From Lactiplantibacillus mudanjiangensis (lineage in GTDB: Bacteria; Bacillota; Bacilli; Lactobacillales; Lactobacillaceae), in NCBI RefSeq assembly GCF_005405385.1, contig NZ_BJDY01000003.1:372001-436000 (forward strand): DNA of 64,000 bases. Reading direction: 5' to 3'. Positions within the stretch are counted from its first letter, which is position 1. Every line of letters starts with the position of its first letter. A model generated the notes under the pieces. It saw nothing but the letters and a program-made list of their open reading frames with translations. It searched no databases and was not told where the DNA came from. The position numbers and the translations under genes are program-made. Below are positions 38,000 through 41,466 of this stretch, one piece after another.

Positions 38000-38725
38000 G
38001 TGAGAAAATTGGCTTACAAATACGAGGCCATCGCCGACAGTTTACGTCAAGATATCAAGTCGGGGAAATATGCGCCCGGTGAATTAATGCCGGATCAAAA
38101 CAAATTAGCCGCGACTTTCGATACAACGCGGATTACGATTCATAAAGCCATTCAGCTATTGATTATTGAAGGGATGGTTTATTCTAAACGTGGTGCGGGG
38201 ACGTTTGTACGTAAAGATTTTGGCATCACTGAAGATCATCAAGAGACATTGATGGACAAACCACTAGGGACAACGCGGACCAATGCTGGAAAGAAAGTTA
38301 CGAGTAAAGTGTTGGAATTACAAGCACGCCTACCAACGACTCGTGAAGCTGAACAATTAATGATTGACGACATGGACCCGGTCTATGTTATTCGGCGAAC
38401 CCGGTATGTGGACGGGAAAGTCTGGGCTTATGAACATACGATTATGCCAACCAGCATTGTGACGTTGACGAAGAGTGTACTGATGGGGTCGATTTATGGC
38501 TACTTGGAAAAAGAACGAGGGATGTCGATTGCCGGTTCTCATCGAATTATTTCGGCGGCCAAAGCCAATGATGAAGATATTGAAGGCTTAGGCTCTCAAG
38601 TAGGTGACCCAGTTTTGGTCATTAACCAAGTCAGTTACACAGATGACGGGCAACCATTCGAAATCTCAGAAGCACATTTACCATACGCGACTAGTACGGT
38701 CGTGGCCGATATTCAAATCCATTAA
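38000..38725 (+). CDS. GntR-family (HutC/UTRA) regulator
   Basis: A 241-residue regulator with a winged helix (LMPDQNKLAATFDTTRITIHKAIQLLIIEGM, then SKRGAGTFV) and a UTRA domain from about residue 90. Close to the beta-glucoside PTS operon, it is the likely regulator of that operon, as with BglR/YydK-type proteins; this is inferred from position. The start is GTG with GAGGAAAG upstream. A 182-nt structured repeat follows in its 3' region. Confidence 0.85.
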   Translation: MRKLAYKYEAIADSLRQDIKSGKYAPGELMPDQNKLAATFDTTRITIHKAIQLLIIEGMVYSKRGAGTFVRKDFGITEDHQETLMDKPLGTTRTNAGKKVTSKVLELQARLPTTREAEQLMIDDMDPVYVIRRTRYVDGKVWAYEHTIMPTSIVTLTKSVLMGSIYGYLEKERGMSIAGSHRIISAAKANDEDIEGLGSQVGDPVLVINQVSYTDDGQPFEISEAHLPYATSTVVADIQIH

Positions 38726-38791
38726 TTAAAGGTGAAATGACAACTGTCGTTAATGTAGCAAGTGTTTGTTCAACGATCAAAAGTCCTCACT

Positions 38792-38973
38792 CTTGCCACC
38801 TGCCGTTCGCCCACATTGAGCCGGAACGCTGTGGGCGGACCGGTTCAGCCAAAAAGCGGTCTGAACCGTCGTTTTGAACCACAAAAATCGTGTTTCAAAA
38901 ACGCCAGGCTCTAAGCGATAAATCGCTAAAAGCCTCCCACGGCTGGGCTCAATGTGAACTCACTCTCGGTTAT
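38792..38973 (+). repeat. 182-nt structured repeat, copy 1
   Basis: It differs from copy 2 (40367-40548) at about ten of 182 positions. Folding features: outer stem CACATTGAGCC with GGCTCAATGTG; local stem CGCCCACA/TGTGGGCG; stem CGGTTCAG/CTGAACCG; a CGTTTTGAA.../...TTCAAAA stem; and a stem around AGCGAT-AA-ATCGCT. Same orientation as copy 2. It lies between the gntR stop and the terminator at 39071. Confidence 0.85.
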
Positions 38974-39070
38974 AATGATGATGAGATTGAGTTGTATTCA
39001 CAATACAGCCGGCTGAATCACTGGCTGACGTAGGTGACTCCTGTTAATGTACTAACTAATTATGATAGTC

Positions 39071-39106
39071 AAACGACAACTGAGCGTTGCTTGGTTGTCG
39101 TTTTAG
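39071..39106 (+). terminator. Terminator after gntR and repeat copy 1
   Basis: AAACGACAAC pairs with GTTGTCGTTT, 13-base loop, then TTAGTTT. It lies before the PadR gene and supports a PadR start downstream of 39106. Confidence 0.6.
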
Positions 39107-39176
39107 TTTGCTTTTAAATTGGTGGAGGTTCATAATTTTAATTAAAGTAAACGGTTTCTTTGAAGGGATGAGCGAA

Positions 39177-39518
39177 ATGGCAGCGGGATTATATCAACGA
39201 TTAATTGACAAGTATGTACCGTTAACCGAAGCGACGTTTTTAACTTTGGTGAGTGTGGCACAACCGATACGAAATATGGATATCCCAACTAAAATTGCGA
39301 CATTGACGAATCATCAGCTACAAATTGGTTTGGGAACGTTGTATACAACTTTACATATGTTGACGCAAGATTATCTGATTAAAGATCAAATAACCGCTGA
39401 TGATCAGCATATTTATGAATTAACCGGGAGTGGACTCGCGGTGCTAGCGGCGGAACGAGATCGTTTGGGGCTACTGAACCAGATTATCAATCAGCTCGAC
39501 TTACCAACTGACGACTAG
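39177..39518 (+). CDS. PadR-family regulator
   Basis: A 113-residue winged-helix repressor: LTEATFLTLVSVAQPIRNMDI opens the domain, GLGTLYTTLHMLTQDYLIKD is the recognition helix and wing, and a short C-terminal helix ends it. ATG 39177 has GAAGGG nine bases upstream; ATG 39168 abuts that site. It lies 25 nt before a DUF2812 gene. PadR-DUF2812 pairs are common in Firmicutes, where the regulator is thought to control its partner. Confidence 0.82.
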   Translation: MAAGLYQRLIDKYVPLTEATFLTLVSVAQPIRNMDIPTKIATLTNHQLQIGLGTLYTTLHMLTQDYLIKDQITADDQHIYELTGSGLAVLAAERDRLGLLNQIINQLDLPTDD

Positions 39519-39543
39519 GGATCGTATTTTTGGGGGTGTTTTA

Positions 39544-40332
39544 ATGCAACGTTATCGAAATGTGATTAAGGGGTCAGCGGCCGAACTAAACTGGCTGAAT
39601 GCGATGGTCAAAAAGGGGTGGTTGTTAGCTGACGTGCATGGGTCACGGTATGACTTTACACCGACAACGACCAACTACCGTCTTTTTACGGAATATGTCC
39701 CAGTTGATGTGGAAACCACGGCTACAACCAATGCCGTATTTACGGTTTTAGCTACGGCCACGTTAAAGCAACCGGCCATTAAAGTACTTTATACTGGGAC
39801 GACCGATCCGAAGCTTTTAGCTGGAATTGGTACGGTAACAAAAGATGATCCACTGCAACTTAAAGTTGCGCTAGGCTTACGGAACCATCTTTGGAATTTA
39901 GTTAATGTGTGGACGCTCGGATGGGTCGTGGCATTCACCGTGATGCTCATGGTGTTAGTCGGCATCCAAGCGCCAGGATGGGCTTTTGAAGTGGGTCCCA
40001 TCATTTGGCTTATTGGCGTGGTGCTCGGAATCAGTCAGATTGTGCCGATTCATCGGCAAGTGCGGCAATTACGTCGTCAATTACAAGATTATGACGATGC
40101 TTGGCGCCCAACTTGGCATATCTTTTTATACAAAATGCCCGCAGCCCCCGATTTAACGCCGATTGAAGATCTGGGTGCTTGGCGTTTGGTTGGACAAGAC
40201 CATCATGGCACGTATTGGTATGATCTACAGACAATGGGCAATGAAGCCACGATTCGTGAGGCGTTACAGCCATTATTGCCACCACATACGGAAATACGTA
40301 TTTTGAGTAATCTAGGATTATGGCCACTTTAA
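39544..40332 (+). CDS. DUF2812-domain membrane protein
   Basis: A 262-residue protein. The N-terminal part (AAELNWLNAMVKKGWLLADV, then YDFTP...YRLFTEYV) fits DUF2812; two membrane helices follow (about 122-140 and 147-163), and the C-terminal 90 residues are cytosolic. Function is unknown; the genes travel with PadR regulators. GGGGG precedes ATG 39544. The two genes are bracketed by the 182-nt repeats as a cassette. Confidence 0.8.
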   Translation: MQRYRNVIKGSAAELNWLNAMVKKGWLLADVHGSRYDFTPTTTNYRLFTEYVPVDVETTATTNAVFTVLATATLKQPAIKVLYTGTTDPKLLAGIGTVTKDDPLQLKVALGLRNHLWNLVNVWTLGWVVAFTVMLMVLVGIQAPGWAFEVGPIIWLIGVVLGISQIVPIHRQVRQLRRQLQDYDDAWRPTWHIFLYKMPAAPDLTPIEDLGAWRLVGQDHHGTYWYDLQTMGNEATIREALQPLLPPHTEIRILSNLGLWPL

Positions 40333-40366
40333 ACAACTAAAGGTTGAAAGTTACTTTTTAGAAATA

Positions 40367-40548
40367 CTTGCCACCTGCCGTTCGCCCACATTGAGCCGGA
40401 ACGCTGTGGGCGGCCCGGTTCAGCCAAAAAGCGGTCTGAACCGTCGTTTTGAACCACCAACCCCGTGTTTCAAAAGCGCCAGTCTCTAAGCGATAAATCG
40501 CTAAGAGACTCCCACGGCTGGGCTCAATGTGAGCTCACTCTCGGTTAT
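40367..40548 (+). repeat. 182-nt structured repeat, copy 2
   Basis: Direct repeat of 38792-38973. Four of the roughly ten differences fall in one seven-base hairpin loop. In the AGCGAT/ATCGCT stem, GGCTC...AAGCC of copy 1 becomes GTCTC...GAGAC here, a G-C to T-A compensatory pair. It lies between the DUF2812 stop and the terminator at 40624. Confidence 0.85.
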
Positions 40549-40623
40549 GTTAGTGATCTGAAACTAATTTAGCATGACTTAAACCAATACTAGTAAGGTT
40601 CCTAATCGTAAAGAAATAATATC

Positions 40624-40664: not shown

Positions 40665-40974
40665 ATGGACGATTTTACAAACACGTGCTAGGCTGGTAAT
40701 GATGAGATCATCGAGTTTGATTTATACAATATATAAAAATATTCATATTTACATGACACCTCGGATAGATAGTAGTATTATATTTAAAGGCCAAAGCTGG
40801 GATGTGTGATTTACCCCTTTTGCTTGCCTAAATAAAAATATCTATAAATAATACTATGAATGTTTTGGTATTCGTCATACTTATTTCATAAAATCAGTAT
40901 AGATTAGAAACTAAGTTCAATTGGTATAGGGTGCTGCCGCATCGATTGGACATAAAATTATCGAGGTGATTTTG
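40665..40974. other. AT-rich intergenic gap
   Basis: About 310 bases with no gene. It contains low-complexity AT stretches and several weak -10-like boxes before the AP2-domain gene; nothing specific was recognised. Confidence 0.5.
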
Positions 40975-41466
40975 ATGCGACTAAAAGATTTAACAGGAGA
41001 GACATTTAGCCGATTGACCGTCATTAAACGAGCTAAGAGTGCCCCTAATGGGAATGCCCGTTGGTTGTGTCAATGTTCATGTGGTCGGCAGGTCGTTGTG
41101 GATAGCTATCGCTTACGCAAAGGCATTACCAAGAGTTGCGGATGTTTACGTGCTGATGTCAGCCGGAAAAATATTTTTGAAAATCCCCAAACACGAAAAA
41201 ATATGGGCCGCAGTGACAACTTACCGTTGTATCAAGGAACGTCCGTTGATCGTTTGAAGCCGAATAGTCGGAATCGAAGCGGGGTCATTGGCGTGTCTTT
41301 TGATCGTTGTTCACAAAAATGGGTCGCGCGTTTAATGTATCGTGGACGCTTAGTGTTGAACCAACAATTTGCGGATATGGATGATGCCATTATGGCGCGC
41401 AAACAAGCTGAGGAACGCTATGTGGTCCCAGTCTTAGAAGAATATGCTAAAACCAGCATGGAATAA
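40975..41466 (+). CDS. Zinc-ribbon plus AP2-domain protein, phage/homing-endonuclease-like
   Basis: A 163-residue protein. The N-terminal part (LTGETFSRLTVIKRA, then WLCQCSCG and KSCGCL) is a four-Cys zinc ribbon. Residues from about 97 (NRSGVIGVSFDRCSQKWVARLMYRG, then AIMARKQAEERY) form an AP2/integrase-type DNA-binding domain. The same pair occurs in phage and homing-endonuclease-associated proteins, but no HNH nuclease core is visible, so DNA binding is likely and cleavage is not supported. ATG 40975 follows GAGGTGA. No phage genes adjoin it. Confidence 0.78.
   Translation: MRLKDLTGETFSRLTVIKRAKSAPNGNARWLCQCSCGRQVVVDSYRLRKGITKSCGCLRADVSRKNIFENPQTRKNMGRSDNLPLYQGTSVDRLKPNSRNRSGVIGVSFDRCSQKWVARLMYRGRLVLNQQFADMDDAIMARKQAEERYVVPVLEEYAKTSME

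Follow-up and report, generated by a model that had tools for sequence, protein, structure and literature searches.

Two copies of a 182-nt structured repeat lie on either side of a PadR-like regulator gene and a DUF2812-like gene in a 64,000-nt stretch of the Lactiplantibacillus mudanjiangensis genome (assembly GCF_005405385.1, contig NZ_BJDY01000003.1, positions 372,001 to 436,000; hereafter the window). We consider it highly probable that each repeat belongs to a separate, independently inserted and now degraded copy of a ~545-bp miniature inverted-repeat transposable element (MITE) that has the ends of an IS4-family insertion sequence (IS) and was moved in trans.

The 182-nt repeats are single arms of a longer element

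A first-pass annotation, made from the letters of the window alone, had treated the 182 nt as a whole unit. The two copies are indeed where it had placed them (Table 1) and differ at exactly ten positions, namely core positions 48, 92, 95, 96, 97, 110, 117, 139, 142 and 167. The unit, however, is larger: coverage between copies revealed an element of ~545 bp with the ends CTAAAGGTTGAAAG...CTTTCAACCTTTAG, in which the 182 nt make up a single arm. Its order is a 17-bp terminal inverted repeat, arm A, an inverted arm B and a second inverted repeat, arm B being a diverged, inverted homologue of arm A in the full-length element.

Further copies, which the annotation had named beforehand as a test, are present in 12 of the 21 genomes of the genus and are abundant in L. 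mudanjiangensis itself (genome G000, 3,289,607 bases in 13 contigs; below, G, C, L and g denote genomes, contigs, loci and genera). A 30-bp core pattern at up to three mismatches occurs 66 times on its forward and 75 times on its reverse strand, compared with no occurrence of the reversed control, and a covariance model of the structured module described below finds at least 150 matches (150 were scored). The strands of 149 module places, taken from the model listing, are plus in 64 cases and minus in 85. With BLAST we obtained 41 matches from the 40 scored of 216 first-look candidates. The copy set used throughout was drawn from 120 loci of this genome (60 by search and 60 by place) together with the window; these gave 128 BLAST matches, 108 of them long, and 93 copies after duplicates and matches too near a locus end had been dropped.

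Both ends are kept, with at most five mismatches each, in 41 of the 93 copies. These full copies measure 319–581 bp from end to end (29 of them 514–556 bp), and 24 are flanked by perfect duplications of 7–9 bp (8 bp in 12 copies, 7 bp in 10 and 9 bp in two), with one-mismatch duplications of the same length at eight more. When flanks were mispaired, the corresponding counts were 4/1640 and 18/1640. The 8 bp to the left of the full copies are 78% A+T. Ends accompanied by target duplications are the signature of DDE-type transposition, and the element has properties by which a MITE is recognised: ends shared with an IS, duplications of 7–9 bp, no transposase gene and a high copy number. In the genus, the 17-bp end was found at up to one mismatch in 12 of the 21 genomes, three of them having just one such site, compared with 0 or 1 occurrences per strand of the reversed controls, and the module is present in 6 of the 13 end-bearing loci of other species of the genus that were given to the model.

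The extents of the two window copies were determined by nhmmer using a profile built on 21 full-length MITEs. Copy A was matched at 38741–39011 (E 4.9e-78, envelope 38724–39011), followed by a right-end remnant at 39005–39039 (E 2.7e-6, envelope to 39062), and copy B at 40337–40559 (E 2.7e-73, envelope to 40565), followed by a right-hand remnant that can be traced by eye to about 40610. As judged by eye, copy A is located between the gntR stop codon and a terminator-like hairpin, and copy B is located in the same way behind the DUF2812 gene.

The direct orientation of the repeats, their equal length and their ungapped similarity over up to 191 nt (93% identity) would be compatible with the proposal in the first-pass annotation that they flank and move the PadR–DUF2812 genes as a cassette. 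We reject this proposal, which in our view has next to no chance of being correct. The order GntR, PadR, DUF2812, HNH-like, ABC is identical in L. daowaiensis and L. songbeiensis, with one extra gene before ABC in the latter, and there is no significant match to the repeat at either orthologous site of these two species. Moreover, DUF2812-like genes were matched in all 21 genomes of the genus, and both copies have element remnants of their own beyond the 182 nt. Neighbouring module pairs at most 1600 bp apart number two in L. mudanjiangensis, below the 11.3 ± 3.1 given by random placement. With the gene order preserved where the repeats are lacking, and no enrichment of close pairs, the bracket around the PadR and DUF2812 genes is no more than chance.

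A probable IS4-family partner has the same ends

The MITE was likely moved in trans by an IS4-family transposase, since three further Lactiplantibacillus genomes have transposase genes enclosed by the same ends (0–3 mismatches; Table 1). The three ISs are 1559–1567 bp long. The two transposases that were scanned, those of L143 and L144, score 481.6 and 460.3 bits against the NCBIfam IS4 model NF049925 (cut-off 250) and match Pfam DDE_5 and DDE_Tnp_1, while IS701 models remain under their cut-offs. The L143 transposase contains YGRRWQIECYFKVAK, whose spacing we take to be that of the YREK motif. Target duplications of 7 bp and 7–8 bp flank the ISs of L144 and L142, respectively. Transposase matches were found in 7 of the 21 genomes of the genus, several of them fragmentary, and L. 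mudanjiangensis has an internally deleted IS4-type remnant of ~347 aligned bases (L147 1340–1488 and 1529–1724; G000:C2, about 537758–538142). Four contigs of G004 (e.g. G004:C20, L135 1–77) break ~60 bases from an IS4-type end, and it looks as if near-identical IS copies had split the assembly there.

According to a published table (PMC2266710), the ISPepr1 subgroup of IS4 is characterised by lengths of 1500–1600 bp, ends of the form YT-AA-YTT---A, duplications of 7–8 bp and AT-rich targets. Compared with these tabulated ends, CTAAAGGTTGAAAG agrees at every specified position except position 7 (G here, Y there). The ISs are within the tabulated length, the targets are AT-rich as in the subgroup, and the MITE duplications are mostly 7–8 bp, with two of 9 bp (PMC2266710). 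On the basis of that table we tentatively place the ISs in ISPepr1; the MITE differs from ISPepr1 elements in being without a transposase. An ISPepr1-type transposase would have acted on the MITE in trans through its ends. One copy would have inserted behind gntR and another behind the DUF2812 gene, and both would then have decayed.

Several observations weigh against this account. One or both recognisable ends are missing from 52 of the 93 copies, 9 of the 41 two-ended copies have no 7–9 bp duplication at up to one mismatch, and no target duplication was seen at the window copies. As to the partner, no intact transposase was found in the L. mudanjiangensis assembly, which yielded the remnant only; the transposase copy at L148 has no end within three mismatches; the flanking repeat at L143 is only 5 bp; and the N-terminus of the G012 protein (L142) is unlike those of L143 and L144, as if frameshifted. 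G012 has the IS and lacks the module, and G005 has 137 module matches and no end at up to one mismatch, which suggests a different or decayed carrier of the module in that species (L165, L177, L189). Among 27 loci chosen for a module match in other species of the genus, no more than four have both ends within 500 bp, even at five mismatches, and an end was detected at up to three mismatches in 5 of 96 loci of other genera, four of them in G168. Finally, movement in trans is inferred and not observed.

The MITE carries a module with strong compensatory change

The 11-bp outer stem of the first-pass annotation (P1, core positions 21–31 paired with 155–165) is borne out, and inside it are a closing stem, P2, and three hairpins, H1–H3. 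We refer to P2-H1-H2-H3 as the module; there is one per arm. Of the ten differences between the window copies, four (core positions 92, 95, 96 and 97) are within the 7-nt loop of a single hairpin, and the compensatory change that had been pointed out is real: G>T at core position 117 goes together with C>A at 142, and A>G at 139 repairs a mismatch. The folding energies of the two copies are −71.0 and −78.5 kcal/mol on the plus strand and −83.5 and −86.5 kcal/mol on the minus strand.

The same dependence on structure is evident across the genome, where 96.2% of the cells pair in 89 own copies. Cells in which both sides of a pair have changed number 123, as compared with 38.9 ± 4.2 in shuffled alignments (reached in 0 of 500) and 10–20 when the structure is slid. 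This alignment was made with MAFFT and was not fitted to the structure; RNAalifold gave a poor 21-pair structure on the gappy alignment and the fold of copy B was used in its place, so the pair percentages lean to copy B.

A structure model, R1 (40 sequences, 118 positions, 40 pairs), finds matches in 12 of the 21 genomes of the genus and none in the other nine, with 150 candidates scored in each. Other species contributed 44 distinct matches, taken from 40 loci that represent all 11 other positive genomes. In this set 37 of the 40 pairs change on both sides, with 477 double-change cells versus 124.3 ± 9.8 shuffled and 46–106 slid, and a score of 0.671 versus 0.164. Covariation, the second test named beforehand, is therefore strong. 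Six other genera, represented by nine genomes, gave 59 distinct matches, in which 35 of the 40 pairs change on both sides (453 cells versus 133.3 shuffled), and in 36 distinct matches from ten genomes, with two more genera added, 39 of the 40 do (363 versus 93.4). These three cross-species alignments were fitted to R1 and so lean to its structure. We conclude that Lactiplantibacillus and eight further genera of the Lactobacillaceae have conserved the module, and that compensatory change is strong in all of these sets.

The three pairs that are invariant in the genus set lie at the tip of H1. All 44 genus sequences have the tip motif GCC..CGGTC, as do 35/59 and 14/36 sequences of the two other sets, where it is rarer because H1 is missing or changed in those rows. 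Protein coding does not account for the pattern, as the first-pass annotation had also held: just one of the 93 copies overlaps an open reading frame (ORF) of at least 120 amino acids.

The module extends beyond the genus

Among 151 Lactobacillaceae genomes, 21 match the module at E ≤ 1e-4; they belong to 9 of the 40 genera, and three of them are of the genus Lactiplantibacillus itself. A deeper search of ten positive genomes returned 2–26 matches in each, and inverted module pairs recur outside the genus. An order-wide search, run with stricter filters and 14 candidates per genome, found 2 of 246 genomes positive, both within the family; given that it missed the known positive G034, it is a weak indication that the module is absent outside the family. 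In genus g5, where ten loci were checked for end pairs, five of the seven G168 loci have such pairs 511–604 bp apart around the core, with 2–4 mismatches per end. Judged by these ends, the module has a putative IS4-type MITE as its carrier in a second genus as well.

Outside Lactiplantibacillus the outer stem is often copy-specific yet self-complementary, and sometimes terminator-like: in G063 and some g5 relatives it runs into a T-run, as in an intrinsic terminator. Complementarity of the flanks within versus between copies amounts to 20.5/5.5 in G063, 15.7/8.3 in G035, 16.0/9.2 in G151, 12.5/8.0 in G072, 13.1/7.2 in G144 and 9.8/5.8 in G040, whereas G093 (15.0/15.0), G034 (8.8/5.9) and G107 (8.0/6.7) show little or no copy-specificity. 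The outer stems of the related copies L199 and L277 differ by compensated substitutions.

Copies lie mostly at gene 3′ ends, often beside T-runs

Classified by flanking genes, 43 of the 93 copies are in convergent gaps, 38 in tandem and 8 in divergent gaps, with 4 unclassified; by the same rule the window's own gaps are 7 convergent, 18 tandem and 8 divergent. Runs of five T within 35 bp of the left end accompany 19 of the 41 full copies and runs of five A on the right 15, while the opposite runs are found in 3/41 (A on the left) and 4/41 (T on the right). At 50 bp out, the left side has one T-run and 13 A-runs, and at 100 bp all four counts are 2–5. This pattern of runs is one of insertion beside terminators. 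Complete copies are mostly found between AT-rich direct repeats at the 3′ ends of genes, often beside T-runs.

An all-against-all comparison of 961 ORFs from the loci (L141–L163 left out) revealed no apparent partner gene beside the modules; the largest ORF cluster near modules covers 10 loci, and clusters at the top of the size range have the look of common gene families, for the most part paralogous. Phage and plasmid collections gave no match, the window's own records possibly being excluded. In four genomes of genus g25 (L247, L250, L254, L257) a module is near the same polyprenyl-synthase-like gene; this copy seems to have been inherited or retained across species.

What may keep the palindromes

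The first-pass annotation regarded selection on RNA or DNA structure as the simplest reading. That the changes are bound to structure holds, but the pair types favour no single RNA strand. A structured RNA selected on one strand (a leader, a terminator or a small RNA), with the MITE as a mere carrier, would agree with the double-sided change at most pairs inside and outside the genus, with an H1 tip that is constant in the genus while the H1 stem varies, with the T-runs behind the outer stems of G063 and some g5 relatives, and with the location of the window copies ahead of terminator-like hairpins, where they may be transcribed. RNA helices, however, usually hold many more G-U than A-C pairs, and H1–H3 are near-pure Watson-Crick. 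The genus set has 24 G-T versus 40 A-C cells in H1–H3 beside 1229 Watson-Crick cells, the two other-genera sets have 17 versus 43 beside 1512 and 16 versus 30 beside 828, and the own-genome copies have 38 versus 69, these cells not being independent events. P2 behaves in the opposite manner (G-T versus A-C 32/6, 74/3 and 41/8 in the three cross-species sets), so that P2 indicates the plus strand and H1–H3, weakly, the other. A search of Rfam, which the annotation had recommended, produced no match at the gathering score in the window and none on the element in six further loci, where the matches obtained at E up to 1 were a tRNA and a sub-threshold 23S-methyl hit, neither of them near the module. 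Because the inner stems are near-pure Watson-Crick and have no consistent strand preference, selection on one RNA strand is not the simplest reading, and we regard it as unlikely. One RNA strand fits the pair types less well than do DNA palindromes, RNA of both strands or a correction process, although this is an argument and not a proof.

The compensatory changes could also stem from copying on palindromes, through hairpin-templated repair or template switching between the arms, with no selected function. This is in keeping with stems that are roughly strand-symmetric and nearly mismatch-free, with outer stems that are copy-specific yet complementary within one genome, and with an element that is itself an inverted pair of arms. 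It accounts neither for an H1 tip that stays invariant in the genus beside drifting stems nor for the retention of the module over nine genera, and at one P1 pair (alignment columns 25–171) 30 of 89 own copies are mismatched, so correction is not general; we regard this explanation, too, as unlikely. Rather improbable, to our mind, is that the Lactobacillaceae module is an insertion that targets the hairpin loops of intrinsic terminators, the copy-specific outer stem being the old terminator. Flank complementarity is indeed higher within than between copies in the first six genomes named above, G063 with its T-runs among them. However, the compensated substitutions of L199 and L277 fit the gradual evolution of a functional terminator, the G093 copies share one outer stem and G034 and G107 show little, some copies in the genus of G063 have IS4-type ends instead, and no empty terminator corresponding to one G063 copy was found in 12 genomes of its genus. 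It is conceivable, if doubtful, that the module is a Lactobacillaceae-wide DNA element in its own right, with hairpins that would be read as DNA by a putative protein, residing in or beside terminators and switching carriers; such an element would combine drifting, strictly Watson-Crick stems with a GCC..CGGTC tip that is near-invariant where H1 is present, and would travel as an inverted pair between IS4-type ends in at least two genera while lacking these ends elsewhere. Within our preferred reading of a MITE with IS4-type ends moved in trans, the module would be a structured unit of old age, carried by IS4-type MITEs in at least two genera and existing elsewhere without recognisable ends. 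It may be kept because its palindromes have a role in DNA, whether as duplex or as hairpin, or because they give hairpins compatible with terminator function on either strand.

Features of the window and related loci

The two window copies, the genes next to them and the related elements are compiled in Table 1. Further downstream, at 40966–41466, the window encodes a 166-amino acid protein with a weak AP2-domain match whose counterparts in L. daowaiensis and L. songbeiensis show 97.6% identity, whereas the other proteins compared nearby are 46–94% identical (one phosphotransferase system (PTS) piece 97%); the leader DNA of this gene looks conserved by eye.

Table 1. Element copies, structural parts and neighbouring genes in the window, with related elements in other genomes. 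Positions are those of the window unless a locus is given; aa, amino acids.
Feature	Position	Strand	Evidence or remark
Degraded MITE copy A: left end decayed, arm A, arm B mostly deleted, short right-end remnant	38724..39062	+	nhmmer
Copy A 182-nt repeat (arm A)	38792..38973	+	structure-model match 38827–38944, 140 bits
Copy A P1 5′ arm, partner 38946–38956	38812..38822	+	fold and pair counts
Copy A P1 3′ arm	38946..38956	+	fold and pair counts
Copy A closing stem P2 5′ arm, partner 38936–38943	38828..38835	+	fold and pair counts
Copy A hairpin H1, conserved apical motif AGCC-A..-CGGTCT	38841..38868	+	pair counts, cross-species alignment
Copy A hairpin H2, with the four-difference loop	38872..38900	+	pair counts, fold, cross-species alignment
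Copy A hairpin H3, GGCTC/AAGCC versus GTCTC/GAGAC	38906..38935	+	pair counts, fold, cross-species alignment
MITE copy B: intact left inverted repeat, deletion, arm A; without arm B	40337..40565	+	nhmmer
Copy B left terminal inverted repeat CTAAAGGTTGAAAGTTA	40337..40353	+	exact match G000:C3:412337-412353
Copy B 182-nt repeat (arm A)	40367..40548	+	structure-model match 40402–40519, 141.5 bits
GntR-UTRA regulator gene, closely 5′ of copy A	38000..38725	+	Pfam GntR and UTRA; 85% identity in L. daowaiensis
PadR-like regulator gene between the copies, outside the element	39180..39518	+	Pfam PadR 25.7 bits, just under cut-off 27; syntenic in two relatives
DUF2812-like gene between the copies, outside the element	39544..40332	+	weak Pfam DUF2812, 18.8 bits versus cut-off 27.8
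IS in G004	L143 1193–2757		451-aa transposase; matching ends
IS in G001	L144 1173–2739		457-aa transposase; matching ends
IS in G012	L142 1337–2895		460-codon open frame, 440-aa listed ORF; matching ends
G168 module copies between IS4-type ends	L278, L282, L284, L288, L290		511–604 bp between ends

Discussion

Prokaryotic MITEs, as outlined in a review (PMC10969869), are short, non-coding, intergenic and foldable and have inverted repeats, and an example given there makes 7–9 bp duplications; the element described here has all of these features (PMC10969869). It differs from MITEs in general in that its interior, compared by eye, does not resemble the IS beyond the ends, in that it is made up of two covarying modules in inverted orientation, the module being found also in genera and genomes where the IS is unseen, and in its number of at least 150 copies in one genome. 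From what is described of them (PMC3446304, PMC2267715), the bcr1-type repeats of the Bacillus cereus group are similar, being high-copy, intergenic, structured and MITE-like and often located in untranslated regions. Unlike for bcr1, an IS with matching ends is identified here and covariation is counted in nine genera; the likeness noted here is one of description. Repetitive extragenic palindromes (REPs) and their doublets (REPINs) are likewise inverted pairs of palindromic units dispersed between genes, and are tied to another type of transposase. REPs are given as 20–40 bp (PMC3733652), in contrast to module units of ~90–190 nt with IS4-type ends in two genera. Our search of the open-access literature found no description of the element, with the one L. 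johnsonii family listed in a stem-loop survey, Lac-1 (PMC2267715), left uncompared.

As a MITE, the element is of an ordinary kind present in large number; the part of interest is the module. A MITE interior with covariation of a grade to be expected of structured RNAs, counted in nine genera, is unusual, and the case calls for caution in annotation, as neither covariation nor direct repeats around genes prove by themselves a riboswitch or a mobile cassette. In this food-associated genus, a 3.3-Mb genome that has one structured module in at least 150 copies, concentrated at the 3′ ends of genes, bears a heavy load. Why palindromes persist is a question that is usually hard to test, and the module, through its hundreds of natural variants, offers a way to examine whether selection, terminator function or hairpin-templated repair keeps them.

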